DNA of 64,000 nt. It comes from a virus. Position numbers and translations under genes: made by a program. The DNA is taken from IMG/VR virus record IMGVR_UViG_3300042561_001206, positions 27,596 through 91,595 of that record, one strand, 5' to 3'. The number at the start of each line of letters is the position of its first letter. The first letter of the stretch is position 1. Positions 13,173-36,768 of the stretch are shown piece by piece. The notes beneath the pieces were generated by a model. The model saw only the letters and a program-made list of their open reading frames with translations, had not been told where the DNA came from and searched no databases.

Positions 13173-13181
13173 CGTTCTTTA
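13173..13181 (+). promoter_or_regulatory. boxA-like antitermination element 1
   Basis: CGTTCTTTA, just after the expected start of promoter 1, resembles bacterial rRNA boxA (TGCTCTTTA), which binds NusB/NusE to prevent Rho termination on untranslated RNA. Followed by AAAATTAG. Confidence 0.5.
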
Positions 13182-13200
13182 AAAATTAGATGTAACTTGT

Positions 13201-13274
13201 TGGGGTGTGGTGAAATGGTATCACACAGGATTTTGATTCCCGTATTCTTGGTTCGATTCCAAGCACCCCTGCCA
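13201..13274 (+). tRNA. tRNA-Gln(TTG)
   Basis: TGGGGTG/CACCCCT acceptor with an open T1-T72 pair (glutamine tRNAs commonly have a weak first pair), anticodon loop TTTTGAT, one A-C mismatch in the anticodon stem, encoded CCA. Confidence 0.9.
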
Positions 13275-13281
13275 AAATTTA

Positions 13282-13369
13282 GGAAGCGTGGTCGAGTGGT
13301 CTATGGCGCCAGTCTTGAAATCTGGAGGTCCGAAAGGGTCCGTGAGTTCGAATCTCACCGCTTCCGCCA
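13282..13369 (+). tRNA. tRNA-Ser(TGA)
   Basis: Acceptor GGAAGCG/CGCTTCC, anticodon loop CTTGAAA, long variable arm (GGAGGTCC...), discriminator G, encoded CCA. Confidence 0.94.
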
Positions 13370-13377
13370 AATTTAAT

Positions 13378-13467
13378 GGAGTGATCCCATAATGGTATTG
13401 GAGCGGATTGCTAATCCGTCGGTTTGCGAAAGCAGGCTTCTGGGTTCGAGTCCCAGTCACTCCGCCA
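13378..13467 (+). tRNA. tRNA-Ser(GCT)
   Basis: Acceptor GGAGTGA/TCACTCC, anticodon loop TTGCTAA, long variable arm, discriminator G, encoded CCA. Second serine isoacceptor, reading AGU/AGC. Confidence 0.94.
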
Positions 13468-13469
13468 AC

Positions 13470-13564
13470 GGTAGGTAGCACTGGTGTGCGGCTGAGTCTT
13501 ATAAGCTCGGGAGATCGGTCAGATGGGCTGAAACGGAAGGGTTCGAATCCCTTACCTACTACCA
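13470..13564 (+). tRNA. Anomalous 95-nt tRNA, anticodon TAT (Ile?)
   Basis: Acceptor GGTAGGT/ACCTACT (13470-13476 / 13554-13560, one G-T), T arm AAGGG-TTCGAAT-CCCTT, discriminator A and encoded CCA are normal. The rest is not: the D arm is GCAC-TGGT-GTGC with only a 4-nt loop, the anticodon stem can form 6 bp (13492-13497 / 13505-13510) around loop CTTATAA, and a 26-nt extra region (13511-13536) replaces the variable loop. Short D loop, long extra arm and 95-nt length recall tRNA-Sec or allo-tRNA architecture. Charging identity is uncertain. Confidence 0.6.
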
Positions 13565-13571
13565 AATACAT

Positions 13572-13649
13572 GCACAGGTGGCAGAGAGGCCCAATGCAAG
13601 AGTCTGCAAAACTCTAAAGCCGTCGGTTCGAATCCGACCCTGTGCTCCA
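13572..13649 (+). tRNA. tRNA-Cys(GCA)
   Basis: Acceptor GCACAGG/CCTGTGC, anticodon stem AGAGT/ACTCT around CTGCAAA, discriminator T as in bacterial Cys tRNAs, encoded CCA. Confidence 0.94.
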
Positions 13650-13665
13650 GTTGCAATAAAACAAC

Positions 13666-13719
13666 GTTGTAAAAATACAACAAAATCGAAGTTGACAACG
13701 GTACCAATACCTGTATAAT
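13666..13719 (+). promoter_or_regulatory. tRNA-array promoter 2 with GTTGT-N6-ACAAC element
   Basis: TTGACA 13692-13697, 16-nt spacer, TATAAT 13714-13719. Upstream GTTGTA-AAAA-TACAAC (13666-13681) is a perfect 6-bp inverted repeat of the same 16-nt form as at promoters 1 and 3. Confidence 0.87.
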
Positions 13720-13752
13720 TGATTCTGTTGTCGATGCAGTAGTGATAACAAA

Positions 13753-13761
13753 CGATCTTTA
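13753..13761 (+). promoter_or_regulatory. boxA-like antitermination element 2
   Basis: CGATCTTTA followed by A-rich sequence, in the leader between promoter 2 and tRNA-Glu, matching element 1 (CGTTCTTTA) in position and form. Confidence 0.45.
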
Positions 13762-13780
13762 AAAAAAATAGCTGTTCAAT

Positions 13781-13855
13781 GCACGGTTCGTCTATCGGTT
13801 AGGACGCTAGCCTTTCACGCTGGAAAGACGGGTTCGATTCCCGTACCGTGTACCA
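13781..13855 (+). tRNA. tRNA-Glu(TTC)
   Basis: Acceptor GCACGGT/ACCGTGT (G-T first pair), anticodon stem CTAGC/GCTGG around CTTTCAC, T arm ACGGG/CCCGT, encoded CCA, which is also the first three bases of a long inverted repeat. Confidence 0.93.
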
Positions 13856-13976
13856 TATTGAAGCACATTAGAATCTGTAAAAAGATCCAGGGTTGGTACA
13901 CCTCATGACTTTCGGCCGTGCTGAGTTTACGGAAACAAGCGGAAGCATGCATAGACCGTAGTGTGTTTCAATATGG
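13856..13976 (+). ncRNA. Structured RNA A closed by a 15-bp stem
   Basis: CCATATTGAAGCACA (13853-13867, sharing the CCA of tRNA-Glu) pairs with TGTGTTTCAATATGG (13962-13976), 15 bp with one G-T, enclosing 94 nt. No tRNA or reading frame lies inside. The terminal stem nearly repeats that of RNA B at 14392-14489, so both are likely processed spacer RNAs of one type. Possible analogy: the extra stable RNAs (C and D) of the T4 tRNA cluster. Confidence 0.6.
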
Positions 13977-14150
13977 TAATAGGGTTCTGTCCCGTAAGGG
14001 AATGGTAACGAAAGTGCCTTCCAATATGTTCGGTGGCCAACGAGCATAGATGCGGAATGTATGAGTAGAGAGGTGAACGAAAGTTTGCGATAAAGCCCCG
14101 GTAGGCCTAAGCATGTAATGTGTACAAAGTACATCCCTGTATCAATTTTC
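13977..14150 (+). other. tRNA-free spacer, possible structured RNA
   Basis: 174 nt between RNA A and tRNA-Tyr. It holds local hairpins (TCCC-GTAA-GGGA near 13989; TGTAC-AAA-GTACA near 14121-14133) and purine-rich stretches but no reading frame or tRNA. It is probably transcribed with the array. I cannot match it to RNase P RNA, tmRNA or another known RNA. Confidence 0.35.
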
Positions 14151-14237
14151 GGGTGCGTAGCCAAATGGTTGACGGCAGCAGACTGTAAATCTGTGACATA
14201 AGAAACGCTGGTGGTTCGAATCCATCCGCACCCACCA
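14151..14237 (+). tRNA. tRNA-Tyr(GTA)
   Basis: Acceptor GGGTGCG/CGCACCC, anticodon loop CTGTAAA on CAGA/TCTG, long variable arm, discriminator A, encoded CCA. Confidence 0.93.
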
Positions 14238-14239
14238 AT

Positions 14240-14313
14240 GCGGGTATAACTTAGTGGTAAAGTAGCTGGCTTTTAACCAGCAAATCCGAGTTCGATTCTC
14301 GGTGCCCGTACCA
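14240..14313 (+). tRNA. tRNA-Lys(TTT)
   Basis: Acceptor GCGGGTA/TGCCCGT, anticodon stem GCTGG/CCAGC around CTTTTAA, T arm CCGAG/CTCGG, discriminator A, encoded CCA. The D arm is weak. Confidence 0.9.
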
Positions 14314-14317
14314 AATT

Positions 14318-14394
14318 GCCCTCTTACTCCAATTGGTAGAGAGGACGGTCTTAGAAGCCGTAGAGTCTCAGTTCGAATCTGAGAGAGGGCACCA
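14318..14394 (+). tRNA. tRNA with anticodon TAG and short variable loop (Leu?)
   Basis: Acceptor GCCCTCT/AGAGGGC, D arm CTC/GAG, anticodon stem ACGGT/GCCGT around CTTAGAA (anticodon TAG, codon CUA = Leu), variable loop only AGAGT (5 nt), T arm CTCAG/CTGAG, discriminator A, CCA. Bacterial Leu tRNAs have a long variable arm, as tRNA-Leu(TAA) at 17244 does; this one is class I. Its CCA begins the stem of RNA B. Confidence 0.85.
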
Positions 14395-14487
14395 TATTGA
14401 AGCATTCTAAACTGGACGCAGGATCGGGGAAAGTCAAAAGCGGGTTGATCACCACAAGTAGACTGGAGATCAAGAGTGCTTTAATAT
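14395..14487 (+). ncRNA. Structured RNA B closed by a 17-bp stem
   Basis: Bases 14392-14408 pair with 14473-14489 (17 bp, two G-T), the ends being the CCA of the preceding tRNA and the 5' GG of tRNA-Asp. The enclosed 64 nt include GGATCGGGGAAAGTC and a GATC...GATC pairing possibility. The outer 13 bases (CCATATTGAAGCA) are identical to those of RNA A. No coding frame is present. Confidence 0.6.
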
Positions 14488-14562
14488 GGTTCCATAGTAT
14501 ATCGGCGAGTATAGCGCCCTGTCACGGCGCAGGAACGGGTTCGAATCCCGTTGGGACCGCCA
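14488..14562 (+). tRNA. tRNA-Asp(GTC)
   Basis: Acceptor GGTTCCA/TGGGACC, anticodon stem GCGCC/GGCGC around CTGTCAC, T arm ACGGG/CCCGT, discriminator G, encoded CCA. The 5' GG also closes the stem of RNA B. Confidence 0.93.
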
Positions 14563-14564
14563 AT

Positions 14565-14638
14565 ACCTGATTAGCTCAAAGGTAGAGCACCCGGCTGATA
14601 ACCGGAAGACACTGGATCGTTACCAGTATCAGGTACCA
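14565..14638 (+). tRNA. tRNA-Ile(GAT)
   Basis: Acceptor ACCTGAT/ATCAGGT, D arm TAGCTC...GAGCA, anticodon CTGATAA on CCGG/CCGG, encoded CCA. The T loop is ATCGTTA instead of TTCGAAT, an unusual base at position 54. Confidence 0.88.
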
Positions 14639-14644
14639 GATTTA

Positions 14645-14693
14645 GTTGTTTATATACAACAGTATTGCCAAGTTCGATATATAGTTATATAAT
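14645..14693 (+). promoter_or_regulatory. tRNA-array promoter 3 with GTTGT-N6-ACAAC element
   Basis: TTGCCA 14665-14670, 17-nt spacer, TATAAT 14688-14693. GTTGT-TTATAT-ACAAC (14645-14660) lies 4 nt upstream of the -35 box. ACAACAGTATTGCCAAG repeats almost exactly the promoter 1 region. Confidence 0.85.
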
Positions 14694-14699
14694 GTTTTT

Positions 14700-14961
14700 C
14701 AAGTCGGGAGACTTTAAGAAGTACGCCGTTTCCTTCGGGTAACCCTGTATACGGTAAGCAGGATTTTTATTGTTGTCGTTTTGGAAAATACCTGTGAACG
14801 CAGGTTAGTGAATCTGTCAATGTGTGGTTAATTCGAATAGACCACGTATACAGTTGTTATCAAGTGAAGACCTTTTGGACGCATTAGGAATAAGCTTGGT
14901 CGTTAAAATCAAACGCCAGTACGGTGAAGGCTGGCTATAACGAAACGACAACAATAAAAAT
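14700..14961 (+). ncRNA. Structured RNA C with 19-bp perfect terminal stem
   Basis: Directly downstream of promoter 3. It starts with hairpin AAGTC-GGGA-GACTT (near 14700-14713) and a 5' domain to 14762; then 14763-14781 pair perfectly with 14943-14961 (19 bp), enclosing 161 nt. Inside are hairpins ACCTG/CAGGT (near 14790-14805), GTGGT...ACCAC (near 14824-14846), GACC...GGTC (near 14868-14901) and GCCAG/CTGGC (near 14913-14936). tRNA-Ala begins 2 nt after the stem. No known RNA class recognised. Confidence 0.65.
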
Positions 14962-14962
14962 T

Positions 14963-15037
14963 GGGCTGCTAGTGATAATGGGAGCACGCCGCCTTTGCAC
15001 GGCGGAGGTTGGAGTTCGATCCTCCAGCGGTCCACCA
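14963..15037 (+). tRNA. tRNA-Ala(TGC)
   Basis: Acceptor GGGCTGC/GCGGTCC with G-T pairs, anticodon stem CCGCC/GGCGG around TTTGCAC, T arm TGGAG/CTCCA, encoded CCA. It directly follows structured RNA C. Confidence 0.92.
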
Positions 15038-15043
15038 AGTTTC

Positions 15044-15117
15044 GCCCCTATAGTTAAATGGTATAACAGTTGACTTGTAATCATCAATTTCCAGTTCGAT
15101 TCCGGGTGGGGGCACCA
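15044..15117 (+). tRNA. tRNA-Thr(TGT)
   Basis: Acceptor GCCCCTA/TGGGGGC, anticodon loop CTTGTAA on a stem with one T-T mismatch, T stem with one A-C mismatch, discriminator A, encoded CCA. Confidence 0.88.
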
Positions 15118-15125
15118 ATTTTAAG

Positions 15126-15203
15126 CCGAGTGTAGGATAGCCCGGTCATTCCGCCTGCTTTGGGAGCAGGAAATCGTGTGTTCGAATCACACCACTCGGA
15201 CCA
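15126..15203 (+). tRNA. tRNA-Pro(TGG)
   Basis: Acceptor CCGAGTG/CACTCGG, anticodon stem CCTGC/GCAGG around TTTGGGA, T arm GTGTG/CACAC, discriminator A, encoded CCA. Confidence 0.93.
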
Positions 15204-15209
15204 GTTTAT

Positions 15210-15285
15210 TCCGGAGTAGCACAGAGGTAGTTGCGTCTGACTGTTAATCAGAATGTCGTTGGTTCGATCCCAGCCTCCGGAGCCA
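15210..15285 (+). tRNA. tRNA-Asn(GTT)
   Basis: Acceptor TCCGGAG/CTCCGGA, anticodon stem TCTGA/TCAGA around CTGTTAA, discriminator G, encoded CCA. Confidence 0.93.
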
Positions 15286-15291
15286 GTTGAA

Positions 15292-15366
15292 GGTAATGTA
15301 GCATAACGGTAGTGCGCCTCCTTCATACGGAGAAAAGTGTTGGTTCAACTCCAACCATTACCACCA
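15292..15366 (+). tRNA. tRNA-Met/Ile2(CAT)
   Basis: Acceptor GGTAATG/CATTACC, anticodon loop TTCATAC on CTCC/GGAG, T arm TTGG-TTCAACT-CCAA, encoded CCA. CAT could read Met or, with lysidine, Ile AUA; sequence alone does not decide. First pair is intact, so not the initiator. Confidence 0.88.
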
Positions 15367-15378
15367 AAGGAGATTATT

Positions 15379-16266
15379 ATGTTGTTGGATGAAATTATTT
15401 CTGTTCCATATACTACTCATCCTAAGATGACGAAAAATAAAGGCAACATTTTCAACAAAACTCCAAATTTAGATTATATTCGTTCTAAAGAAAAAGAGTT
15501 AAAACAATTTGCTCCTGATTTGTGTGCCGAGACATTTGAAAATATCTCAAAGCAACTTGTTCGAAAAAGTTCAATCTACTGTGGTGTACCACAAACAGAT
15601 TCAATGATTGAATTTGCAATGAATTTTGAAGAAGATGTTGCAATTATGCATAACGGAAAATTATCAGGAATTTGTTTCTGTTTTCCAAGCAGTTGGATTC
15701 CTAAAAAACGCATAGGTATGTCTCTAGAAGATATTCATTCACAAGTTGCGGATAATGAAAGACTTATAAAAATGAGCGCAAAAATTGCAAGCACAATGGC
15801 TGATCCTGTTTTAGGTTCTTTTCGAAGATATGTATGGACGATTACAAATAATCCTGAATTGAGTAATCATCCAAAAAGAAAAAGTATGATTGTTCCTAAA
15901 AGTTTAGATGATTTGTATTTTAGACTTGAAACTCAAACAACTGCACCTATAGGTGACTGTGTGACAAGTTTGTTCTTTGTTAAAGTTCAAGTAATTCCTC
16001 TTAGTCATGTCTGGGGAAGTTACGGTAAACTAATTACTAACAGTGTAAATTCTATGAGTGATGCAATCTTGGAATACAAAAATCTAAAGCATATTAAAAC
16101 GGTCCTTAGTTCAATGGATCAGAACACCGGGCTACGAACCCGTGAGGTTGGGAGTTCGAATCTCTCAGGACCGGCCAACCATAATTTGAAAGATGAGTAT
16201 TATGATATTCTTACAACTGAAGATTGTTTAGTTAAAGATTCTCCCAGTGGTGTAAAGGCAACATAA
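15379..16266 (+). CDS. DUF3445-like (heme-dependent N-demethylase-type) protein with tRNA-containing 3' end
   Basis: ATG 15379 follows AAAGGAG; the frame runs 295 codons. Residues about 60-200 (VAIMHNGKLSGICFCFPSSWIPKK, then SLEDIHSQVADNERL, later FRRYVWTITNNPEL and LYFRLETQT) resemble DUF3445, the heme-dependent oxidative N-demethylase family. From 16100 the frame passes without a stop through tRNA-Arg(ACG), then 21 normal-looking codons, then stops inside tRNA-Trp. The native C-terminus is therefore unclear: the tRNA may have been inserted in frame near the gene's end. Family call moderate, coding status of the first 240 codons good. Confidence 0.6.
   Translation: MLLDEIISVPYTTHPKMTKNKGNIFNKTPNLDYIRSKEKELKQFAPDLCAETFENISKQLVRKSSIYCGVPQTDSMIEFAMNFEEDVAIMHNGKLSGICFCFPSSWIPKKRIGMSLEDIHSQVADNERLIKMSAKIASTMADPVLGSFRRYVWTITNNPELSNHPKRKSMIVPKSLDDLYFRLETQTTAPIGDCVTSLFFVKVQVIPLSHVWGSYGKLITNSVNSMSDAILEYKNLKHIKTVLSSMDQNTGLRTREVGSSNLSGPANHNLKDEYYDILTTEDCLVKDSPSGVKAT
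16100..16177 (+). tRNA. tRNA-Arg(ACG), inside an open reading frame
   Basis: Acceptor CGGTCCT/AGGACCG, D arm TAGTTCAATGGATCAGAAC, anticodon loop CTACGAA on CGGG/CCCG, discriminator G, encoded CCA. It is 78 nt (26 codons) and leaves the surrounding frame open. Confidence 0.93.
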
Positions 16267-16314
16267 GAGTCTCCAAAACTTTTGATTGCGGTTCGAATCC
16301 GTACTGGGAGGCCA
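16241..16314 (+). tRNA. tRNA-Trp(CCA)
   Basis: Acceptor CTCCCAG/CTGGGAG, anticodon loop CTCCAAA on AGAGT/ACTTT, T arm TGCGG/CCGTA-type pairing, discriminator G, encoded CCA. The D stem is weak. Its first third carries the stop of the upstream reading frame. Confidence 0.85.
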
Positions 16315-16332
16315 TTTTATCAGAGGTGGATT

Positions 16333-16803
16333 ATGTACAACAAAAAAATTAATCTAGAAGAAGTTAAATCGTTTATTGAAAGCTGTGGTCCCAATACCAA
16401 AGTTTATCTTGGTTGTGACTCGGAAAAAGTTAAAATGAATGGTGTTTGGCATGCTGATTATATTATAGCCATTGTTGTGCATATGAATAGCAAAAATGGT
16501 TGTAAAATTTTCGGGCAAATCACTCGTGAACGTGACTATGATCAAGCTCGCAATAAGCCACGTATGCGTCTGATGAATGAAGTTTATAAAGTTGCAGAAA
16601 TGTATCTGAATCTTGCGGCAATCATTGATGTGGATATTGAAGTACATCTTGACATTAACCCAAATGAAGAGTATAATTCAAATATCGTAATTAATGAAGC
16701 AATTGGCTATATAAAAGGCATGTGTAATGTTGTTCCTCTTGTAAAACCAAATGCTTTTGCTGCGTCTTATGCAGCAGATAGATTGAAGAGTCTTGCAGCA
16801 TAG
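16333..16803 (+). CDS. RNase H-like YkuK/DUF458 family protein
   Basis: 156 aa from ATG 16333 (GAGGTGG upstream). VYLGCDSEKVK, a central IIAIVVHMNSKNGCKIFG strand pair, ARNKPRMRLMNEVYKVAEMYL, EVHLDINPNEEYNSN and KPNAFAASYAADR match the DUF458/YkuK family, with the acidic residues of an RNase H-like fold (Asp in GCDS, Asp in HLDI, Asp in AADR). The bacterial family has no settled role. It lies within the tRNA array, so an RNA-related function is a fair guess but not shown. Confidence 0.75.
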   Translation: MYNKKINLEEVKSFIESCGPNTKVYLGCDSEKVKMNGVWHADYIIAIVVHMNSKNGCKIFGQITRERDYDQARNKPRMRLMNEVYKVAEMYLNLAAIIDVDIEVHLDINPNEEYNSNIVINEAIGYIKGMCNVVPLVKPNAFAASYAADRLKSLAA

Positions 16804-16809
16804 AATATA

Positions 16810-16884
16810 GCGGGTATGATGTTAACGGTAGCATGACAGCCTTCCAAGCTGATCGAATCGGTTCGAATCCGATTACCCGCTCCA
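16810..16884 (+). tRNA. tRNA-Gly(TCC)
   Basis: Acceptor GCGGGTA/TACCCGC, anticodon loop CTTCCAA on CAGC/GCTG, discriminator T, encoded CCA. Confidence 0.93.
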
Positions 16885-16890
16885 AAATTT

Positions 16891-16967
16891 GCGGCTATGG
16901 TGTTTAACGGTTAGCACGAGACCTTGCCAAGGTTTAGGTTCCAGTTCGAATCTGGATAGCCGCTCCA
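16891..16967 (+). tRNA. tRNA-Gly(GCC)
   Basis: Acceptor GCGGCTA/TAGCCGC, anticodon loop TTGCCAA on GACC/GGTT, discriminator T, encoded CCA. Confidence 0.93.
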
Positions 16968-16973
16968 ATCAAT

Positions 16974-17048
16974 GGTGTCTATGGTGTAGTGGAAGCATTA
17001 CTCTCTGTGAAAGAGTAGGTACGAGGTCGGTACTCGTTAGACACCCCA
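16974..17048 (+). tRNA. tRNA-His(GTG)
   Basis: Encoded G-1 at 16974 opposite C73, acceptor GTGTCTA/TAGACAC, anticodon CTGTGAA on CTCT/AGAG, encoded CCA. The T loop is GTCGGTA rather than TTCGAAT. The encoded G-1 is the HisRS identity element. Confidence 0.9.
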
Positions 17049-17049
17049 G

Positions 17050-17123
17050 GCTTCGTTAGTTTAATGGTAGAACACCGCCCTTACAAGACGGTTACGGCAG
17101 TTCGATTCTGTCACGAAGCACCA
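17050..17123 (+). tRNA. tRNA-Val(TAC)
   Basis: Acceptor GCTTCGT/ACGAAGC, anticodon loop CTTACAA on a stem with one C-A mismatch, discriminator A, encoded CCA. Confidence 0.9.
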
Positions 17124-17127
17124 ATTT

Positions 17128-17203
17128 GCCGCTTTAGCTGATGTGGTCATAGCAACGGTCTGAAGAGCCGTGGAATCTGGTTCGATTCCAGAAGGCGGTA
17201 CCA
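17128..17203 (+). tRNA. tRNA-Phe(GAA)
   Basis: Acceptor GCCGCTT/AGGCGGT with G-T pairs, anticodon loop CTGAAGA on ACGGT/GCCGT, T arm TCTGG/CCAGA, encoded CCA. Confidence 0.91.
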
Positions 17204-17204
17204 T

Positions 17205-17233
17205 TTGACAAGTTACATTTAATTTGATATAAT
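17205..17233 (+). promoter_or_regulatory. tRNA-array promoter 4 (perfect consensus)
   Basis: TTGACA 17205-17210, 17-nt spacer, TATAAT 17228-17233, beginning one base after tRNA-Phe and 11 bases before tRNA-Leu. Unlike promoters 1-3 it has no GTTGT-N6-ACAAC element upstream. Confidence 0.88.
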
Positions 17234-17243
17234 GTTTTATAAT

Positions 17244-17331
17244 GCGGATGTGGCGAAATTGGTGAAACGCAGCAGACTTAAAATCTGCCACATTAGAAAC
17301 ACTGCGGGTTCGAATCCCGCCATCCGCACCA
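17244..17331 (+). tRNA. tRNA-Leu(TAA)
   Basis: Acceptor GCGGATG/CATCCGC, anticodon loop CTTAAAA on CAGA/TCTG, normal long variable arm, discriminator A, encoded CCA. Confidence 0.95.
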
Positions 17332-17339
17332 AGTTTAAA

Positions 17340-17418
17340 GGGCCTCTAGCTCATGCATGGTTAGAGCAGCGAACTCATAATTCGTTGGTGCGGGGTTCGA
17401 CTCCCCGGGGGCCCACCA
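17340..17418 (+). tRNA. tRNA-Met(CAT), elongator or Ile2
   Basis: Acceptor GGGCCTC/GGGGCCC, D arm TAGCTCATGCATGGTTAGAGCA, anticodon stem GCGAA/TTCGT around CTCATAA, T arm CGGGG/CCCCG, encoded CCA. All acceptor pairs form, so it is not the initiator. Confidence 0.91.
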
Positions 17419-17426
17419 GATTCAAT

Positions 17427-17500
17427 CGCGGGTTAGAGAAACGGTATCTCAGAAGCCTCATAAGCTTCAGTTGTTGGTTCGACTCCAGCACCCGCTACCA
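17427..17500 (+). tRNA. tRNA-fMet(CAT)-like initiator
   Basis: CGCGGGT/ACCCGCT acceptor with a C1-T72 mismatch, the diagnostic open first pair of bacterial initiators (C1-A72 in E. coli). Anticodon CTCATAA on GAAGC/GCTTC (without the usual three G-C pairs), D arm GAGA/TCTC, encoded CCA. Its last bases overlap the stop of the minus-strand gene. Confidence 0.8.
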
Positions 17501-27148: not shown

Positions 27149-27461
27149 AGAAGGTGTTGATTACAACTATGTAATTCCAGAAAACGAAAGTACAACAGTT
27201 GGTATAAAATTATTAACAGGTCCTTTTAGAGATGTTGTGTATCAATATGGTAAAGTAAAGTTTGAAGAGGGCGCTAATGATGACATTTATCTAGGATTCA
27301 TTTATAATGTCATAGAGTCACCTTACGAAAAAGATTATTTGAACGAAAAATTCAAAAATTATATTGGTGACATTCTTGTGGAAATTATGTCGCAAAACAT
27401 TGAAAAAGGACTTCTAGATGAGGCTGGAACAGACTATATTGAGGACTCTGATACAAAGTGA
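27138..27461 (+). CDS. Conserved-position hypothetical between UvsX and helicase
   Basis: 107 aa, acidic. VDYNYVIPENESTTVGIKLLTGPFRDVVYQYGKVKFEE..., DDIYLGFIYNVIESPY, ending in Glu/Asp-rich sequence. A small alpha/beta protein of unknown role, in a slot that similar phages also fill with a short gene. GAGGAAG in the UvsX end is the ribosome site. It overlaps the helicase gene by 44 bases. Confidence 0.8.
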   Translation: MQFKEGVDYNYVIPENESTTVGIKLLTGPFRDVVYQYGKVKFEEGANDDIYLGFIYNVIESPYEKDYLNEKFKNYIGDILVEIMSQNIEKGLLDEAGTDYIEDSDTK

Positions 27462-28797
27462 AGATTTCCTTAGAAAAGTTCTTCCGTTTATTAAAGATGA
27501 ATATTTTTCCGATAGAGTTGAAAAGTATATCTTTAAAGAAATAAATGTATATGCTAACCAATACAACACCACTCCGTCTGTAGAAGCTTTGATTCTTGCT
27601 TCAAAGGAAAGTAAGAATATTACTGATGAAGAATTTAAGAGTTGTGAAGAATACCTTAAAGAAATCGATAAGCATAATCGTGAGCTGGAAACACCGAATC
27701 AGGAATGGCTAATCGACAAAACGGAAAAATTTTGTCAGGAAAAGGCCATTTACAATGCAGTTCGTAATTCAATCACAATCTTAGAAGGAAAAGATAAAAC
27801 GAACGACAAAGGTTCAATACCAAAACTATTGTCAGATGCTCTTGCTGTAAGCTTTGACAATTCAATTGGGCATGATTATTTGGAGAACTCCGATGAACGA
27901 TATGAATTCTATCACCGAAAAGAGGAACGAATCCCGTTCGACCTTGAATTTTTCAACAAGATCACCAAAGGAGGTCTCCCTGCCAAGACACTTAACATTG
28001 CTCTTGCTGGGACCGGTGTTGGTAAGTCTCTTTTCATGTGTCATGTTGCCGCTGGTTGTATGTCGCAAGGAAAAAATGTTCTATACATCACCCTTGAAAT
28101 GGCAGAGGAAAAAATAGCCGAACGTATTGATGCGAATCTATTAAATGTATCAATAGACAATTTAATGGAGTTGCCGAAAGATATATATGATAAGAAAGTG
28201 AAACGTGTCAAAGAAATGACAACGGGCAAATTGATTATCAAAGAATATCCAACGGCATCAGCTTCAGCAATCCACTTTAGAACACTTCTGAATGAACTCA
28301 ACCTTAAAAGGAATTTTGTTCCTGATATCATTTTTATTGATTATCTTAACATCTGCTGTTCTTCACGAATTAAAGCGGGAGCGAATGTTAACTCTTATAC
28401 TTACGTCAAATCTATTGCAGAAGAGTTACGAGGATTGGCTGTTGAGTTTGGGGTGCCAATTGTTTCAGCTACCCAAACAACACGAAGCGGATACACAAAC
28501 TCAGATCCAGGGCTTGAAGACACCAGTGAAAGTTTTGGTTTGCCGGCTACAGCAGACCTGATGTTTGCTTTGATTTCATCAGAAGAACTTGAGGCACTCA
28601 ATCAAATCATGGTCAAACAGTTGAAGAATCGATATTCTGATCCGACAACACACAAAAGGTTTGTTCTTGGTATTGATAGGTCGAAGATGAAGTTATATGA
28701 TGTCGAACAAGATGCTCAAATAGGTATTGCGGATGCTGGGCAACAATATGTGCCGCAGGAAAAACCCAAAAATAAATTTGGTGGATTTAAAGTATAA
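27418..28797 (+). CDS. 41: Replicative helicase gp41
   Basis: 459 aa (T4 gp41: 475 aa). N-terminal LEQTILRTLIQSEDFLRKVLPFIKDEYF matches the gp41/DnaB-like start; Walker A AGTGVGKSLF near residue 205, Walker B IIFIDYLNICC, and VSATQTTRSGYTNSDPG with the arginine-finger region. It unwinds DNA 5'-3' at the fork and associates with gp61. The start lies within the preceding small gene. The gene ends just before a late-promoter/hairpin element. Confidence 0.95.
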   Translation: MRLEQTILRTLIQSEDFLRKVLPFIKDEYFSDRVEKYIFKEINVYANQYNTTPSVEALILASKESKNITDEEFKSCEEYLKEIDKHNRELETPNQEWLIDKTEKFCQEKAIYNAVRNSITILEGKDKTNDKGSIPKLLSDALAVSFDNSIGHDYLENSDERYEFYHRKEERIPFDLEFFNKITKGGLPAKTLNIALAGTGVGKSLFMCHVAAGCMSQGKNVLYITLEMAEEKIAERIDANLLNVSIDNLMELPKDIYDKKVKRVKEMTTGKLIIKEYPTASASAIHFRTLLNELNLKRNFVPDIIFIDYLNICCSSRIKAGANVNSYTYVKSIAEELRGLAVEFGVPIVSATQTTRSGYTNSDPGLEDTSESFGLPATADLMFALISSEELEALNQIMVKQLKNRYSDPTTHKRFVLGIDRSKMKLYDVEQDAQIGIADAGQQYVPQEKPKNKFGGFKV

Positions 28798-28820
28798 ATA
28801 TCTCCATCATTAGGAGATAT
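28793..28820 (+). promoter_or_regulatory. Late promoter inside an SD-sequestering hairpin
   Basis: TATAAATA (28793-28800) is the exact T4 late -10 box. ATATCTCC (28798-28805) pairs perfectly over 8 bp with GGAGATAT (28813-28820), loop 7 nt, hiding the GGAG ribosome site of the 28824 gene. A transcript started by the late box would begin near 28806, in the loop, and lack the 5' arm. Confidence 0.7.
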
Positions 28821-28823
28821 AAA

Positions 28824-29651
28824 ATGGCTCAAAAAGGTTTTGAATATGAACAAAATGCATATAATGCATTAGCAAAATATGGCATAACGACCGGTGGTGT
28901 TGCTGGTGCATCACATGATAAACCCGATTTAACTATGGGTGCTGGAAATATAAAAACTGGTTGTGAACTAAAAAATTCACCCACTGCCGCAGGTTCTTTA
29001 GTTATGAAATATTATAATGGAAAATGGGATTTTGGTGACTATAAAGGTGAAGCAGAAAAGGAAATGTTAGTAAGCATAGCAAAAAAAGTGAATTTGTTGC
29101 GTGAAATGAACACTTCAGGTTCAGCGGGAAAACTATGGAGAGAATCTGTACCGATTTTACAAAATGATAATTCTGGTAAAAAGAGGTTACTCATAGGTGA
29201 CATTAAAAAACTTGCTGATAAGAAAAAAGCATATTCGATTGACATAGAAAATTACGGTGGAAAAAAAGAAGTTCATATTGATGTTGGCTCAAAAGCGATA
29301 TGTGATTATTACATAACAAAAAAATGTTCGTATATTAATATCGGTACACATGGTTTCTTTACATTAGGCAGAGACGATTTACGTTTAAATGAAAAAATGA
29401 AAAGACTAGGATTGGATCCAATACCAAACTTTGCAACAAATTCAAAAACAATTATTAGAGTCAGATGCCAACCAAAAAGTATATCGAAAATGGATTATCA
29501 ATTCGCTTTAACTTTACAGTTTAGTTCCGTTAAAATGTCTCCATATAATTTAGCTCCACTAAAAAAAGGTTCAAAAGCAGAAATTGATACTGAGGCATTA
29601 CAACAGGATAGTTTACGTAAAGTCTTTTTAGCATTCTATTCATTAATGTAA
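28824..29651 (+). CDS. PD-(D/E)xK nuclease-like protein
   Basis: 275 aa. GFEYEQNAYNALAKYGI at the start offers the Glu of the fold, HDKPDLTM the central Asp after a KPD turn, and GCELKNSPTAAGSL the E-x-K pair, in the spacing of restriction-like or Holliday junction resolvase-type nucleases. The C-terminal 150 residues are not recognised. The likely role is DNA cleavage, but this rests on three short motifs. Translation should depend on the hairpin at 28798-28820, which suggests late expression. Confidence 0.65.
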   Translation: MAQKGFEYEQNAYNALAKYGITTGGVAGASHDKPDLTMGAGNIKTGCELKNSPTAAGSLVMKYYNGKWDFGDYKGEAEKEMLVSIAKKVNLLREMNTSGSAGKLWRESVPILQNDNSGKKRLLIGDIKKLADKKKAYSIDIENYGGKKEVHIDVGSKAICDYYITKKCSYINIGTHGFFTLGRDDLRLNEKMKRLGLDPIPNFATNSKTIIRVRCQPKSISKMDYQFALTLQFSSVKMSPYNLAPLKKGSKAEIDTEALQQDSLRKVFLAFYSLM

Positions 29652-29665: not shown

Positions 29666-30403
29666 ATGAAACCTTTGATCACAATCATAACACCGACAAC
29701 AGGTAATTCACATTTAGCCGAAGCCGTTCGGTCGGTTGAAAAACAAACATATGAAAAAATACAGTATCTTGTTGTTGTAGACGGACAACAAAGATTAGAA
29801 AATACTAACAAAGTATTAAACTCTCTCGGTTGCAATAGATACAATACTGTTGTTTTACCTGAAGCTACAGGATATGAACAATACAATGGTCACAGAATTT
29901 ATGGTGCAATGACATACATCGCAGAAGGTGAATATCTTTGTTTTCTAGATGAAGATAATTGGTATGAACCTAATCATGTCGAGTCTCTTGTAGAAGCAGT
30001 TCAAGGAAAAACCTGGGCTTACTCACTCAGAAAAATTGTTGACCAAGAAAATAATTATATCTGTAATGATGATTGTGAATCTCTGGGTAAATGGAAGTCG
30101 GTGTTAAATGATAATTTCATCGATGTTGGTTGTTTTATGCTACCTAAAAAAATAGCAATTCAATTTTCGCCAGGTTGGTACAGACGAGCCAGACATCCAC
30201 AAGAACAACCTGAAGTGGACAGATTACTTTCTCATATACTGTTCACACAAATACCACACGAACAGGTTGACACCAATGGTCAATATACATTAAACTACAG
30301 AGTTGCCAGTAGAGGTGACTCTGTTCAAGGATCTTTTTTTGAAAAAGGTAATGAACACATGAAAAACATTATGAATGGAGAATACCCATGGAGAAAGATT
30401 TAA
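29666..30403 (+). CDS. GT2-family glycosyltransferase
   Basis: 245 aa. LITIITPTTGNSHLAEAVRSVEKQTYEKIQYLVVVDGQ is the typical nucleotide-binding start of GT2 enzymes, and YLCFLDEDNWYEPNHVESL carries the D-x-D metal motif. A late RARHPQEQPEVDRLL may be the acceptor side. First gene of the sugar-related island that extends to 36768; it overlaps the next gene by 16 bases. Confidence 0.85.
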   Translation: MKPLITIITPTTGNSHLAEAVRSVEKQTYEKIQYLVVVDGQQRLENTNKVLNSLGCNRYNTVVLPEATGYEQYNGHRIYGAMTYIAEGEYLCFLDEDNWYEPNHVESLVEAVQGKTWAYSLRKIVDQENNYICNDDCESLGKWKSVLNDNFIDVGCFMLPKKIAIQFSPGWYRRARHPQEQPEVDRLLSHILFTQIPHEQVDTNGQYTLNYRVASRGDSVQGSFFEKGNEHMKNIMNGEYPWRKI

Positions 30404-31272
30404 TTATAGGAGCATTCACAAATTATACAGACTATGATGTATTAAAGCCGTGGGTGCAATCAATTAAAGATACAGGTTTTGAAGGTGACATTGTACTGTC
30501 AGCAATCGATGCTACCGATACGATTGTTCAAAAACTAGAGTCTGAGGGAGTAAAAGTTCTAAGGTCTAGTAACTCTCAAAAAATGATGGTACATATGTTG
30601 AGATTCCTTTCAATTTATGATTATTTAAAAAGCAATAAAAACAAATACCGTTTTGTGGTGACAACAGATGTAAGAGATGTTATTTTTCAAAGCAATCCGA
30701 TTGATTTCATTAAAACAAAATTTTATAATATTGGATTAATTGCTGCATCTGAAGCGATTAAAATAAAAGATGAAAAATGGAATCGTGAAAATATTATTAA
30801 AAATTTTGGACCTTATTTTTACAATGATGTTTCTGAGAGAGAAGTTTTAAATGTGGGGCTAATTGCAGGAAAAGCCGAACTCGTGAAAGACCTTTGTTTC
30901 ACACTCTTTCAAATGTCTTCAAATCGCCCAGACTGGGTAGCCGATCAAGCCGCATATAATATGATACTTTCATTTGAACCTTGGAAATCTAAGTGTGCAA
31001 TATTGAGATTAAGAGATGCATGGGCACTTAATGCTCATGTTACAAATAAGCCGGATCAAATGGAAGAATTTGGTCCATATTTATTGGAAAATCGCCCCTA
31101 CATGGACGAAAATGGTAAAGTTGTAAACTCAGAAGGAAAACCTTTTGTTATTGTACATCAATATGATAGAATTCCAGAATGGATGGAATATTTCTCTAAA
31201 AAATATGGAATAAAAATTACAAAAGATACAAATACTGGCACATCACCTAAATACTTCCTATATAAATCGTAA
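30388..31272 (+). CDS. Glycosyltransferase-like protein with TDVRD motif
   Basis: 294 aa. IIGAFTNYTDYDVLKPWVQSI at the start, FVVTTDVRDVIFQSNP around residue 90 (a D-x-R-D variant of the metal site), LNVGLIAGKAELV and DQAAYNMIL around 190. This layout is found in GT-A-type proteins of capsule and surface-glycan loci. Acceptor unknown. It overlaps the previous gene by 16 bases, as expected of a cotranslated unit. Confidence 0.75.
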   Translation: MEKDLIIGAFTNYTDYDVLKPWVQSIKDTGFEGDIVLSAIDATDTIVQKLESEGVKVLRSSNSQKMMVHMLRFLSIYDYLKSNKNKYRFVVTTDVRDVIFQSNPIDFIKTKFYNIGLIAASEAIKIKDEKWNRENIIKNFGPYFYNDVSEREVLNVGLIAGKAELVKDLCFTLFQMSSNRPDWVADQAAYNMILSFEPWKSKCAILRLRDAWALNAHVTNKPDQMEEFGPYLLENRPYMDENGKVVNSEGKPFVIVHQYDRIPEWMEYFSKKYGIKITKDTNTGTSPKYFLYKS

Positions 31273-31295
31273 TTTTATAAATATGAGGTTTTGAA

Positions 31296-32126
31296 ATGAG
31301 CAAAATCACTTTAGTTACCGCTTTCTATGATATCGGGCGCGGTGACTGGTCAACAAATGTCCACAAAAATGGTGGACCTCTCCCGCATTATCTTCAACGT
31401 TCTGTTGACAAATACATTGAACACTTCACAAGAATGTGTGAAATCGACACCGAAATAATCGTCTACACTTCACCGGATTTGGTTGAACGTCTTTCAAATA
31501 TTTCTCCTAACGTAAAAGTTGTTTCATATGATTACGAGAATGTACAACAGGAACTAAGAGAAAAAATTCACAACATTCAAAGTTCTCCAGAATTTACAAG
31601 GAGAATCAATCCTTATCAAGTTCGAAACCCTGAATATTGGTCAAAAGATTATGTTGGAGTTACTTCACTCAAAGCTTTTTATGTTTATGACGCTTTTGAA
31701 AAGGGGCTCATTACTAATGATTGGGCATCATGGATCGATTTTGGATATTGTAGAGATGATGAACATATTCCTAAATCAAAAAAATGGGAATACGATTTTA
31801 CTCCAGGAAAAATGCATTTCTTTAATTACAGGGAACCTGTATTGTCAAGAGCGATGGAGCAAATTCAAACGGCCGTTCTGAATAACCTTGTTTATATTAT
31901 TGGTGGAGTTTTTGTAGGAGAAAAAGAACAATGGTGCATGCTAAAAACACACATGGAAAAATCTTTAAATGTTCTTTTTGAAAACAACTTGGTCGATGAT
32001 GATCAAGGGCTTTTGCTCATGTCCTACTTCAGAAATCCTGAAAAATATGAACTTCATAAAATGCCTCTAGATCAGGATATTGAGCAAGTTCGTTCGATTT
32101 TGAGGAGATTTAATAAACATGAATAA
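31296..32126 (+). CDS. HtrL/YibB-family protein
   Basis: 276 aa. The N-terminus ITLVTAFYDIGRGDW is the hallmark of the HtrL_YibB family, with WASWIDFGYCRDD in the middle and DDDQGLLLMSYF near the end, again GT-A-like in layout. E. coli YibB lies in the LPS core region; its reaction is not known. It overlaps the next gene by 8 bases. A TATAAATA box at 31276-31283 is too close to the start to serve it as a promoter. Confidence 0.82.
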   Translation: MSKITLVTAFYDIGRGDWSTNVHKNGGPLPHYLQRSVDKYIEHFTRMCEIDTEIIVYTSPDLVERLSNISPNVKVVSYDYENVQQELREKIHNIQSSPEFTRRINPYQVRNPEYWSKDYVGVTSLKAFYVYDAFEKGLITNDWASWIDFGYCRDDEHIPKSKKWEYDFTPGKMHFFNYREPVLSRAMEQIQTAVLNNLVYIIGGVFVGEKEQWCMLKTHMEKSLNVLFENNLVDDDQGLLLMSYFRNPEKYELHKMPLDQDIEQVRSILRRFNKHE

Positions 32127-33501
32127 GTTAGTCATATTTGATCTCGATGGTGTGTTAATTGATTCTAGAGAATTACATTATGATGCTTTGAACAAAGCTC
32201 TTGAAAAGATTGATCCGAAATATGTGATTTCTAGAGATGAACATCTAAGCATTTACGATGGGTTAAACACAACAAAAAAACTTAAAATGTTGACTGAAAG
32301 AAAAGGTCTACCCACATCTTCATACGATAAGGTTTGGGCTGATAAACAAGAAGCAACATTTAATTTAGTTCGTGGTTTTATGCCTAATTATTTTTTATCT
32401 GCATTGTTTTCGGATATTAAAAAAAGAGGATATAAAATTGCCGTTGCATCAAATTCAATTCGTGAAACAGTAAAATTGTCATTACTAAGTATTGGCGTAC
32501 TAGATTCAGTAGACTATTACGTTAGTAACGAAGATGTTTCAAGGACAAAACCATATCCAGAAATGTACTGGAAATGCATGACGGCTTTGAACGCTCTTCC
32601 AAAAAACACTATTATAGTAGAAGATAGCCACATCGGAAGACAAGGCGCCATGGATTCAGGAGCGCATTTATTACCAGTTGAAAATTCACATGAAGTAAAT
32701 TCTGATAGATTTTTAAAAAGGTTGACTGATATGATTCAAACGATTGAAGGAAAAAGTAAAAAATCATTACCTTGGAGGGACAGTAGGCTTAATGTTCTGA
32801 TTCCAATGGCGGGTGCTGGCTCAAGGTTTGCATCTGTTGGTTATACTTTTCCAAAACCTCTAATTGAAGTTCGTGGAAAGCCAATGATTCAAGTAGTTGT
32901 TGAGAACTTAAACATTGAAGCAAACTATATTTTTATTGTACAAAAAGAACATTATGAAAAATATAATTTAAAATATCTGCTTAATGTCATTGCACCTGAC
33001 TGCAAGATTGTACAGGTTGATGGGCTCACTGAAGGTGCAGCATGTACAACATTACTTGCAAAGGAATTTATTGATAATGATGCACCATTGGTAATGGCTA
33101 ATTCAGATCAATTTGTTGAATGGAACTCAAATGAATGCTTATATGCATTTACTGCCGACTCTATTGACGGTGGAATCGTCACATTCGAAGCAACACATCC
33201 TAAATGGTCTTATGCAAAATTAGGAGAAGATGGTTTCGTGTCTGAAGTTGCAGAGAAACGCCCTATTAGTAATCTTGCAACAGTTGGCATTTATTATTGG
33301 AAACAAGGATCCGATTATGTTAAATATGCTGAACAAATGATTCAAAAAAATATTCGTGTCAATAATGAATTTTATGTTTGCCCAGTTTTCAATGAAGCAA
33401 TTCAGGATAACAAAAAAATACGTATAAAAAATATCGAACGTATGTGGGGAATTGGAACACCAGAAGATTTAAATTATTTTTTGGATAACTACAAAGAATA
33501 A
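32119..33501 (+). CDS. HAD phosphatase fused to sugar nucleotidyltransferase
   Basis: 460 aa. Residues 1-205 are a HAD hydrolase: VIFDLDGVLIDSRELH (motif I), IAVASNSIRETVK, SRTKPYPEMYW and TIIVEDSHIGRQGA (motif IV). Residues about 225-460 are a nucleotidyltransferase: LNVLIPMAGAGSRFASVGYTFPKPLIEVRGKPMI, then MANSDQFVEW (metal Asp). Together they could dephosphorylate a sugar phosphate and activate another as NDP-sugar, supplying the transferases next door. The fusion is continuous with no stop or frameshift at the joint. Confidence 0.88.
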   Translation: MNKLVIFDLDGVLIDSRELHYDALNKALEKIDPKYVISRDEHLSIYDGLNTTKKLKMLTERKGLPTSSYDKVWADKQEATFNLVRGFMPNYFLSALFSDIKKRGYKIAVASNSIRETVKLSLLSIGVLDSVDYYVSNEDVSRTKPYPEMYWKCMTALNALPKNTIIVEDSHIGRQGAMDSGAHLLPVENSHEVNSDRFLKRLTDMIQTIEGKSKKSLPWRDSRLNVLIPMAGAGSRFASVGYTFPKPLIEVRGKPMIQVVVENLNIEANYIFIVQKEHYEKYNLKYLLNVIAPDCKIVQVDGLTEGAACTTLLAKEFIDNDAPLVMANSDQFVEWNSNECLYAFTADSIDGGIVTFEATHPKWSYAKLGEDGFVSEVAEKRPISNLATVGIYYWKQGSDYVKYAEQMIQKNIRVNNEFYVCPVFNEAIQDNKKIRIKNIERMWGIGTPEDLNYFLDNYKE

Positions 33502-33520
33502 CCTATAGAGAGAATGTAAT

Positions 33521-34186
33521 ATGTTAGAATCATTATTTCAAAATCATTATAATGATTGGAGGGAAAAGAGAATAAAAAAAATAGAAAATCTTTTGTCTGT
33601 TGATTTTATCAAAAATAAATCTATTTTGGAAGTAGCATGTGGGCTAGGTGATATAGGAAATTATTTTAGAACTACACATAATTGTAGTATTACATTCACA
33701 GAAGGCAGAAAAGAATATCTACCTATAATTCGGTCAAAAAATCCAAATAGTGAAATACATCAATTAAATCATGAAGAAAACTGGAACCTAAACAAAAAAT
33801 TTGATATTGTGATAAATTTTGGATTACTTTATCACCTTTATAATTGGAAACAAGATTTAATTTGTTCACTGAATCATACTGACATTTTGGTTTTAGAAAC
33901 GGAAGTAGCAGATTCGGATAAGCCCCTCTTCGAATATGAATTTACCGATAGAAATGATTACGACCAATCGATAACAGAAACTAGAAGAGTTAAAAGAGTT
34001 TCTGCAAACCACATAGAACATGTTTTAGAAGAAAACAATTTTTCGTTTGTTAGGTATGATGATGAAGATTTAAATTCAACAATGCACATTTATGATTGGA
34101 AAGTATCAGGGTCATCTGAAAAAGAAAATTTGGATCCCAATAATGACATGGGTAGAAGAAGATTCTGGATAGCAAGAAGAAAATGA
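33521..34186 (+). CDS. SAM-dependent methyltransferase
   Basis: 221 aa class I methyltransferase. SILEVACGLGDIGNYF (motif I, SAM binding), ITFTEGRKEYLPII, then FDIVINFGLLYHLYNW (motif IV region). In a sugar island it may methylate a glycan residue, but a small molecule or protein is possible. ATGA overlap with the next gene. Confidence 0.83.
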   Translation: MLESLFQNHYNDWREKRIKKIENLLSVDFIKNKSILEVACGLGDIGNYFRTTHNCSITFTEGRKEYLPIIRSKNPNSEIHQLNHEENWNLNKKFDIVINFGLLYHLYNWKQDLICSLNHTDILVLETEVADSDKPLFEYEFTDRNDYDQSITETRRVKRVSANHIEHVLEENNFSFVRYDDEDLNSTMHIYDWKVSGSSEKENLDPNNDMGRRRFWIARRK

Positions 34187-34890
34187 AGATAGCGATGGTT
34201 ACTGGTGGTCAACCGAGATTTAGAAATGCATGGATAACAAATATCACATCACTGCCAAGTGATAATGAAATACACCTTTATATGTATCTATGGAAAGATT
34301 ACGGTAAAGCCAAAAAATTTGACAATGACGAAAAAGAAATAACTGAAAATAATGTTGAAAGATTAATCGTAAAAAATTTACCTAATAATTGCTTGTTAAA
34401 AAAATTTATTCAATGTGAAATGCCAAAATATGAAGAAATAGTACCAGAAGATATTGTTTCATTTCCGGGAGCAAATGGTTCTGTTCCTTCTGGTAAAAAT
34501 TATATAGAGAGACTTTATATGCAACATTACTCTCTGCATAAAGCTTTCTGTTTAATTGACGAAGAATATGATTGTGTGATAAGATATAGGTTAGACGGAA
34601 ACACAGAATATAAAATTGATTTAAACAAATTTAATTTAGAAGAAGGCATTTATATACCTGATAGTATGAAATTTTCTGAATATCGTGATTTTTGTCCGGA
34701 AATTAATGACCAGTATGCAATTGGAAGTATGAAATCTATGAAAGTTTATTTCGATCTTTATAACAAACTCTCTCAATATATAAGAGAAGATTCAAAATGT
34801 TTTCATTTCGAAACAATACTAAGTTATCACATGGTTAAAAATTCTATAAACGTAAAATCGGCTGAATTCCAATACAGGTTAGAAAGGTGA
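34183..34890 (+). CDS. Glycosyltransferase-like paralogue 3
   Basis: 235 aa, the closest relative of copy 1 at 6114: both start with AM-(I/V)-x-x-GQPR, have LYMYLWKD/LYFYMWSN, a NNC/HC-LLKKFI segment, YDCVIRYR-x-D and NDQ(F/Y)AIG-x-MK-x-MKVYFD. The pair probably arose by duplication and may use the same donor. It follows the methyltransferase (ATGA overlap) and precedes copy 4 by 3 bases. Confidence 0.8.
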   Translation: MKIAMVTGGQPRFRNAWITNITSLPSDNEIHLYMYLWKDYGKAKKFDNDEKEITENNVERLIVKNLPNNCLLKKFIQCEMPKYEEIVPEDIVSFPGANGSVPSGKNYIERLYMQHYSLHKAFCLIDEEYDCVIRYRLDGNTEYKIDLNKFNLEEGIYIPDSMKFSEYRDFCPEINDQYAIGSMKSMKVYFDLYNKLSQYIREDSKCFHFETILSYHMVKNSINVKSAEFQYRLER

Positions 34891-34893
34891 AAA

Positions 34894-35610
34894 ATGAAAG
34901 TTGCTATTGTACTTACCGGGCATATGAGGTGTTGGAAACAAGTTTATCCAAATTTCAAACAACGTCTTGTTGAGAGGTATGATCCGGATATTTTTATTGA
35001 GACATGGGAAGATGAGGCGTATTGGGATCCACATAGTCAACATGGAATAGTTAAAGATGCTCCAAAAGTGAACTTTGACGATCTAAGAAATACTTACAGA
35101 CCGATTGCAATGAGATTTGACTCATATGAAAAATATCAAACCTCATTCGAAGAAAGATCAAAGCAATATTCAAACTTCTATCATGTTCCTAAAAACATCA
35201 TATCGATGTTATTTAAATTAGGGCGAGGAATTTTAATGTTAGAAGATTATATGTTTCTAACAGGTAAAACTTATGATCTTGTTATAAGAATGCGCCCAGA
35301 TTTAGTTTTTAATGAACCTCTTCCTGAATTTGATCCGAATAAATTTTATACGTTAGGGTATAGGAACCATATGGGGCAAGGAACCTCAGATATGATTCAA
35401 GTGGGCAATTTTTTTACAATAAGCCTTTTCTCTAAACTATTACACCATCTTCCTCAGATTTATAGAGAAACAGGATTACTTTGCCCGCATGTTGTTTCAG
35501 AACATTTCATAAGAAGATTGGGTTTCCCATGGGAAGAATTCATGATTGATAAAACTATTATGCATACACCTCTCGGTGAATATAAACGAAAGGAGATGTA
35601 TTTGAAATGA
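34894..35610 (+). CDS. Glycosyltransferase-like paralogue 4
   Basis: 238 aa. VAIVLTGHMRCWKQVYPNF, DIFIETWED, YDLVIRMRPDLVF and a degenerate third motif GTSDMIQVGNFFT in place of NDQFAIG. The third motif's change suggests altered substrate binding. It overlaps the GDPD-like gene by 4 bases. Same family reasoning as copies 1, 3 and 5; function inferred from layout only. Confidence 0.78.
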   Translation: MKVAIVLTGHMRCWKQVYPNFKQRLVERYDPDIFIETWEDEAYWDPHSQHGIVKDAPKVNFDDLRNTYRPIAMRFDSYEKYQTSFEERSKQYSNFYHVPKNIISMLFKLGRGILMLEDYMFLTGKTYDLVIRMRPDLVFNEPLPEFDPNKFYTLGYRNHMGQGTSDMIQVGNFFTISLFSKLLHHLPQIYRETGLLCPHVVSEHFIRRLGFPWEEFMIDKTIMHTPLGEYKRKEMYLK

Positions 35611-36098
35611 GATACATAGCACATCGAGGCTTATTGAATGGCCCGGACAAAAATTTAGAAAACTCTCCCGATCAAATTGAAAAAGTTCTAAAACACGGTT
35701 ATGATTGCGAAGTAGACGTATGGGCAATTTATGATAAATGGTTTCTTGGGCATGATGAACCTCAATATGAAGTTCCTGTTAGTTTCTTAGGTAAACAGGG
35801 GCTCTGGATACATTGCAAAAATCTAGATGCATTGTATAAACTTAATGATTTACCTATTCATTATGAATATTTCTGGCATCAAAACGATGATTTCACGTTA
35901 ACTTCAGGCAAGTTTATATGGACATATCCTGGCAAACATTTAACGAGAAAATCTATTGCTGTATTACCTGAAATAAATCAAGAATATTGGGATTATGTAA
36001 AAAGTTTAAATATTTTTGGAGTTTGCACAGATTATGTCGAAAAATTCATTTCCGAAATTAGCTCTTTGCCTGTCGGGCCAACCAAGAAGTTATTTTGA
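35607..36098 (+). CDS. Glycerophosphodiester phosphodiesterase-like protein
   Basis: 163 aa, much shorter than full GDPDs (about 250 aa or more). IAHRGLLNGPDKNLENSPDQIEKVLKHGYDCEVDVW contains the H-R, E-N and E-x-D metal and catalytic residues, and FLGHDEPQYEVP the second His. It may cleave a glycerophosphodiester of lipid or teichoic-like polymer; in a sugar island it may release a glycerol-P-linked unit. The end overlaps copy 5 of the paralogue family by 65 bases. Confidence 0.8.
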   Translation: MRYIAHRGLLNGPDKNLENSPDQIEKVLKHGYDCEVDVWAIYDKWFLGHDEPQYEVPVSFLGKQGLWIHCKNLDALYKLNDLPIHYEYFWHQNDDFTLTSGKFIWTYPGKHLTRKSIAVLPEINQEYWDYVKSLNIFGVCTDYVEKFISEISSLPVGPTKKLF

Positions 36099-36768
36099 TG
36101 CCTATCAATATGTTAAAAAGAACCTCTTAGATCATTTCACTGTTGATGTTTTTGCGCACTCTTGGAAAAGTTCAAATCAATTAAATCAACTAAAAATATA
36201 TGAAGAAATAAACGCAATCTATTCTCCATTGCTTTTATTGTTTGACAAGCCTTTGAATACCAACATCAATAGTGATATGGTAGTTACTAATTCGTCACAT
36301 CCAGCAAATTTCTGTACCTCGATGTTTTACTCGATACAAAAGGCTGACCATTTTAGGGTTGTCACAGAAGCCACTTTGAGTAAAAAATATGATTTTGTAA
36401 TTCGAAGTAGATTTGATTTGGCCTTGAATTCTGTTATAGATTTCACAAAATTAGAAAAAGGAAAAGTCTATATTTCAAAAGATTTTGATGGTCCAAATCC
36501 ATTATTAAATGATCAATTTGCAATAGCTGATCCGGATACAATGAATATTTACTCAAGCACATATTTTTTTCTGAGATATCACTATGATAGAGGTGTGACA
36601 CTTTGTGGGCACTCTATGTTGGAAGCACAATTAAAATTGTTCAACATTCCAGTAGAAAGGATTGACATTAATCACCCATTCCAAGACGGTAGGTTTAATA
36701 TAGGAAGGCATTCTCTTATCAGATCAGATATGGACAAATGGGTGGACATTAAAATCTGGGGTTACTAA
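36034..36768 (+). CDS. Glycosyltransferase-like paralogue 5
   Basis: 244 aa from ATG 36034. LALCLSGQPRSYFDAYQYV, DVFAHSWKSS, YDFVIRSRFDLAL and LLNDQFAIADP show all three family motifs. The start lies 65 bases inside the GDPD-like gene; GGAG at 36018-36021 is 12 nt upstream, a wide spacing, and a TTG at 36016 is the alternative. It ends the sugar island; CTAAATA at its stop may be a late promoter for the virion genes. Confidence 0.77.
   Translation: MSKNSFPKLALCLSGQPRSYFDAYQYVKKNLLDHFTVDVFAHSWKSSNQLNQLKIYEEINAIYSPLLLLFDKPLNTNINSDMVVTNSSHPANFCTSMFYSIQKADHFRVVTEATLSKKYDFVIRSRFDLALNSVIDFTKLEKGKVYISKDFDGPNPLLNDQFAIADPDTMNIYSSTYFFLRYHYDRGVTLCGHSMLEAQLKLFNIPVERIDINHPFQDGRFNIGRHSLIRSDMDKWVDIKIWGY

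Follow-up and report, generated by a model that had tools for sequence, protein, structure and literature searches.

A putative late-promoter and hairpin switch behind the helicase gene gp41 of an uncultured T4-like phage

The genes e, soc, 49, and I-TevI of phage T4 are documented cases of a late-promoter/hairpin switch (PMC3014915), and the mechanism itself has been shown for e and I-TevI (PMC3014915; PMC2988022). With long transcripts of e, lysozyme synthesis is reported to be about 100-fold lower (PMC3014915). The genes under this control are late genes located on early or middle transcripts (PMC2988022). Here, a leader of the same type is described directly behind the helicase gene gp41 of a T4-like phage, ahead of a gene starting at position 28824 (the 28824 gene). 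Judging from its sequence and from the analogy with T4, this leader is likely to combine a T4-type late promoter with a translational off-switch that works by the known T4 mechanism.

The 28824 gene, its leader, and its product

The window, that is, the whole stretch of 64,000 bases analysed, comprises bases 27,596-91,595 of the virus record IMGVR_UViG_3300042561_001206 (91,595 bases in total). Its gene content is that of a T4-like phage. The window encodes DNA polymerase gp43, UvsX, gp41, the clamp gp45, the clamp loader gp62, and RegA; the portal, prohead-core, protease, scaffold, and major head genes are found outside it in the same record, together with a homologue of the late sigma factor gp55 (E 5e-23). 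A search of the record with gp33 of T4 gave no match. Besides these genes, 27 tRNA genes for most of the amino acids are predicted in one region of the window (11012-17500), and an endonuclease VII (gp49-like) gene lies directly before gp62 (7827-8252), without a TATAAATA box, unlike the hairpin-controlled gene 49 of T4.

The record contains six copies of the box TATAAATA, all on the + strand, and five of them lie up to about 55 bases ahead of a gene start. The genes preceded by it include those for the prohead core (gp67-like) and the scaffold (gp22). Since the box precedes these two genes and the phage encodes gp55 and gp45, the copy behind gp41 is in all likelihood a genuine late promoter. 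At 31276-31296 of the window, a second TATAAATA lies very near its gene (HtrL/YibB-like); a T4-type start at 31289 would give a 7-base leader without the GAGG of 31285-31288, and the late RNA would be nearly leaderless.

The sequence at the gp41 stop is GTATAAATATCTCCATCATTAGGAGATATAAAATG. The stop codon (TAA, 28795-28797) lies within the late box, and the 5' arm of the hairpin starts on the base right after it (Table 1). The arms form a perfect 8-bp stem around the loop ATCATTA, in which GGAG is buried. The original prediction had placed a late box at the base of a perfect 8-bp hairpin covering GGAG, and both the sequence of 28793-28820 and its fold bear this out.

Table 1. Features of the gp41-28824 junction (window positions)
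Feature	Position	Strand	Basis
gp41-like DnaB-type replicative helicase, upstream gene	27418..28797	+	phrog_19, E 2.7e-129; Pfam DnaB_C
T4-type late promoter box TATAAATA (very probable)	28793..28800	+	sequence; box also before gp67-like and gp22 genes; gp55 homologue
Hairpin 5' arm (anti-SD) ATATCTCC, upstream of predicted late start	28798..28805	+	sequence, fold
Predicted late transcription start, first loop base	28806	+	predicted because the T4 late box sits at -13 to -6 (PMC1524935)
Shine-Dalgarno (SD) AGGAG, ATG 7 bases on	28812..28816	+	sequence
Hairpin 3' arm GGAGATAT, holding the SD	28813..28820	+	sequence, fold
Putatively controlled gene, 275 aa, conserved protein with PD-(D/E)XK motifs	28824..29651	+	18-sequence alignment; model pLDDT 92.6; weak Hjc fold match

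The 34 bases from 28793 to 28826 fold with a minimum free energy of -9.7 kcal/mol (z -3.7), a value equalled by 1 of 200 shuffles. In RNA beginning at 28806, AGGAG is unpaired in the predicted minimum-energy structure, and the predicted probability that the SD is unpaired in an identical relative (L004) is 0.20 for readthrough RNA versus 0.71 for late RNA. Thus, readthrough RNA does hide the ribosome site in the predicted fold, as had been proposed. When the 53 SD-bearing starts of the record are ranked by a score for SD-hiding stems, the 28824 start comes first with a score of 19, which 114 of 20,000 sequences with shuffled upstream bases (0.6%) match. An Rfam search returned snoRNA matches only, all below gathering scores.

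The same stem scorer was applied to the T4 genome, where the top genes are I-TevI (24.5), e (23.5), 49 (22.5), and segB (12.5), all of them genes for which such control has been shown or proposed (PMC3014915; PMC2988022). The statement that T4 uses this switch for e, soc, and I-TevI is documented in the literature (PMC3014915) and, for e and I-TevI, mirrored by top scores; soc did not show a simple stem of this kind in the scan and was not recovered.

Regarding the working of the leader, we infer that early or middle RNA would continue past the end of gp41 into the 28824 gene, carrying both arms and thus, in the predicted structure, a hidden SD. Later, gp55, loaded by the gp45 clamp, would bring RNA polymerase to TATAAATA, and the late RNA, beginning at about 28806 without the entire 5' arm, would be translated. 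The 28824 protein would therefore be made mainly late, even though its gene immediately follows a replication gene that is transcribed earlier. In the scans, no promoter of the early or middle class could be assigned to gp41 with confidence, and no terminator-like site was found on the + strand between gp41 and the 28824 gene.

The product of the gene is a putative nuclease. Residues E9, P34, D35, E48, and K50 are invariant in the 18 aligned sequences, and they form, with E48-x-K50, a PD-(D/E)XK nuclease pattern. The structure is predicted with high confidence (pLDDT 92.6), but its top PDB fold match is the Hjc resolvase, a weak one (E 0.21, probability 0.35), and the good viral matches are unnamed proteins. 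Pfam and PDB sequence searches gave no match, and neither GIY-YIG, HNH, nor any other homing domain was found in domain and profile searches. Behind this gene (29666-36768) lie glycosyltransferase, YibB-like, HAD/nucleotidyltransferase, and methyltransferase genes, probably involved in sugar modification.

Leaders behind gp41 in related phages

Homologues of the 28824 gene are found in 20 viral contigs, 19 of which have gp41 upstream on the contig. Among 75 gp41 ends, 39 show an overlapping ATGA stop/start and 12 have the stop inside TATAAATA. A stem score of at least 12 is reached by 10 of the 17 distinct late boxes behind gp41, against none of 116 in the gp20-gp23 late region of related phages (Fisher 5.8e-11, a P value that is too small because the relatives are not independent). 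The gp22 late boxes of four relatives, whose records gave no gp21 match, were left out of comparisons. The mean predicted openness of the SD in readthrough RNA is likewise lower behind gp41 (0.33) than in the gp20-gp23 controls (0.56). The remaining seven late boxes behind gp41 lack a strong stem, and in three loci (L007, L008, L010) the assumed late RNA is predicted to keep the SD mostly paired. In one locus (L014), the late box comes directly after a strong terminator-like hairpin with a T run and there is no SD-hiding stem, which is what one would predict if readthrough were the sole reason for having the stem. In four loci (L026, L043, L076, L084), several apparently unrelated proteins occupy the slot behind gp41 after late boxes, with possible degenerate nuclease motifs (D...SLK/SIK/HKK).

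The pairing is kept while the sequence changes. In L083, AAATACTC pairs with GAGTATTT; in L012, CTCTATTA pairs with TAATAGGG; and the arms of L025 and L084 are different again. Two loci (L024, L027) use a CTAAATA-type box whose own bases enter the stem over the SD (CCTAAAT/ATTTAGG); CTAAATA is the late box reported for phage Aeh1 (PMC1524935). The matches listed in two IMG/VR pattern scans served only as a source of loci and not as a signal/control pair, the intended control pattern CCTC...GGAG having also picked up real CCTCC/GGAGG stems. In the contigs sampled, the inward stem extension of CTCC...GGAG sites exceeds all 2000 shuffles, with covariation of the inner stem bases, and other late boxes outside the search pattern have a strong stem in 17 of 91 cases versus 7.0 expected (maximum of 14 in 500 arm swaps). 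One contig (L181), accounting for 27 of the matches listed, was set aside as resembling a CRISPR-type array; from 6110 onward this contig, which is classed as viral, shows regular repeats of TATAAATACTCCCTTGATAGGGAGTTGGATTGAAAC every ~72 bases.

Alternative readings of the hairpin

The main rival to the late switch is translational coupling, where ribosomes ending gp41 at its stop codon would occupy the 5' arm, melt the hairpin, and permit starts at 28824. The hairpin would then link early translation of the 28824 gene to that of gp41 rather than forbid it, and the late promoter would add late expression. The arm begins on the very next base after the gp41 stop, and the ATGA overlap seen behind gp41 in 39 of the 75 relatives is a classical coupled layout. 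Nevertheless, the stops preceding T4 e and 49 are near the hairpin as well, 7-12 bases ahead of the 5' arm, and long e transcripts are reported to give strongly reduced lysozyme synthesis all the same (PMC3014915), which makes coupling the less likely explanation; it also leaves unexplained, taken alone, why the arm comes after the late box and before the late start. Coupling as the true account thus appears unlikely. It still bears on the claim of translation only from late transcripts. A T4-type switch is supported by the anatomy of the leader, the presence of gp55 and the clamp, the T4 control, and the 10/17 versus 0/116 contrast, but "only" goes too far, since the hairpin is moderately stable and a ribosome that finishes gp41 right beside it might allow a degree of coupled translation early on.

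The inverted repeat might instead function at the DNA level, perhaps as an operator through which the 28824 protein would repress the late promoter of its own gene. I-TevI binds an operator of this sort, which spans the late promoter from which it is itself expressed (PMC2988022); in the present leader, too, repeat and late promoter overlap, and the product is nuclease-like. This is very improbable given that the arms vary in sequence among relatives with similar proteins, that the SD side is always involved in pairing, and that related stems precede unrelated genes (L026, L084). No more credible is a coincidence in which an A/T-rich leader and a purine-rich SD yield both box and hairpin. Some shuffled leaders do reach the score, as given above, and CTCC-like bases often follow TATAAATA in the contigs sampled, many of them chosen by that very pattern; yet the stems cluster behind gp41, are absent from the gp20-gp23 region, and covary in their inner bases. 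Finally, a terminator scan lists the hairpin as terminator-like on the - strand. As a transcription terminator or RNA-processing signal it is nonetheless exceedingly improbable: the neighboring genes are all on the + strand, no T run follows the hairpin on that strand, and the stem has only three G-C pairs. Both the terminator and the operator were judged weaker explanations than an SD-hiding switch.

Comparison with described systems

The putative late switch in this leader indicates that a control known from a few T4 genes also operates in uncultured T4-like phages, where its place in the genome is fixed. Stems behind gp41 and none within the head-gene cluster place it where a late gene follows an early one, which fits the remark made for the known T4 cases (PMC2988022). 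In a broader reading, for which the balance is even, the region behind gp41 in aquatic T4-like phages would be a variable slot reserved for late PD-(D/E)XK-like proteins. This slot would have acquired a late promoter joined to an anti-SD arm time and again, the stop codon of gp41 often being part of the promoter, and the stem would have been re-created from different sequences, including diverged boxes (CTAAATA). Neither this instance nor its position behind gp41, the stop inside the promoter, or the recurrence in uncultured phages was found in the limited open-access literature consulted. Such leaders can serve to identify late genes concealed within early operons, and they draw attention to a family of late nuclease-like proteins that has gone unstudied.

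Among the described systems, P-SSM2 provides a homologous protein (PSSM2_192, T4-GC 188), whose gene is preceded by a AATAAATA box and a 9-bp hairpin finishing just before the ATG. This gene lacks a clear GGAG SD, however, and lies behind purH2 rather than gp41. The marine virus AG-345-E02 has the same box and 9-bp hairpin ahead of its homologue of the 28824 gene.

The leaders of T4 e and 49 share with the present one the late box, the SD-hiding hairpin, and the position close after the stop of the preceding gene, although that stop lies outside the box and the products are lysozyme and endonuclease VII. T4 segB and Aeh1 mobE are free-standing endonuclease genes whose SD is hidden on readthrough RNA (PMC2988022); they encode homing endonucleases, whereas the 28824 gene is not known to be capable of homing. 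T4 I-TevI has a late box, a pyrimidine-rich arm before the start, the SD in the 3' arm (AATAAATACTTCTATATTTAAAGAGGTATTTATG, score 24.5), and a nuclease-type product, but it is a GIY-YIG enzyme encoded within an intron, in contrast to the free-standing PD-(D/E)XK-like gene behind gp41. A nuclease made late would be in keeping with T4, where endonuclease VII and homing endonucleases are among the products controlled in this way.
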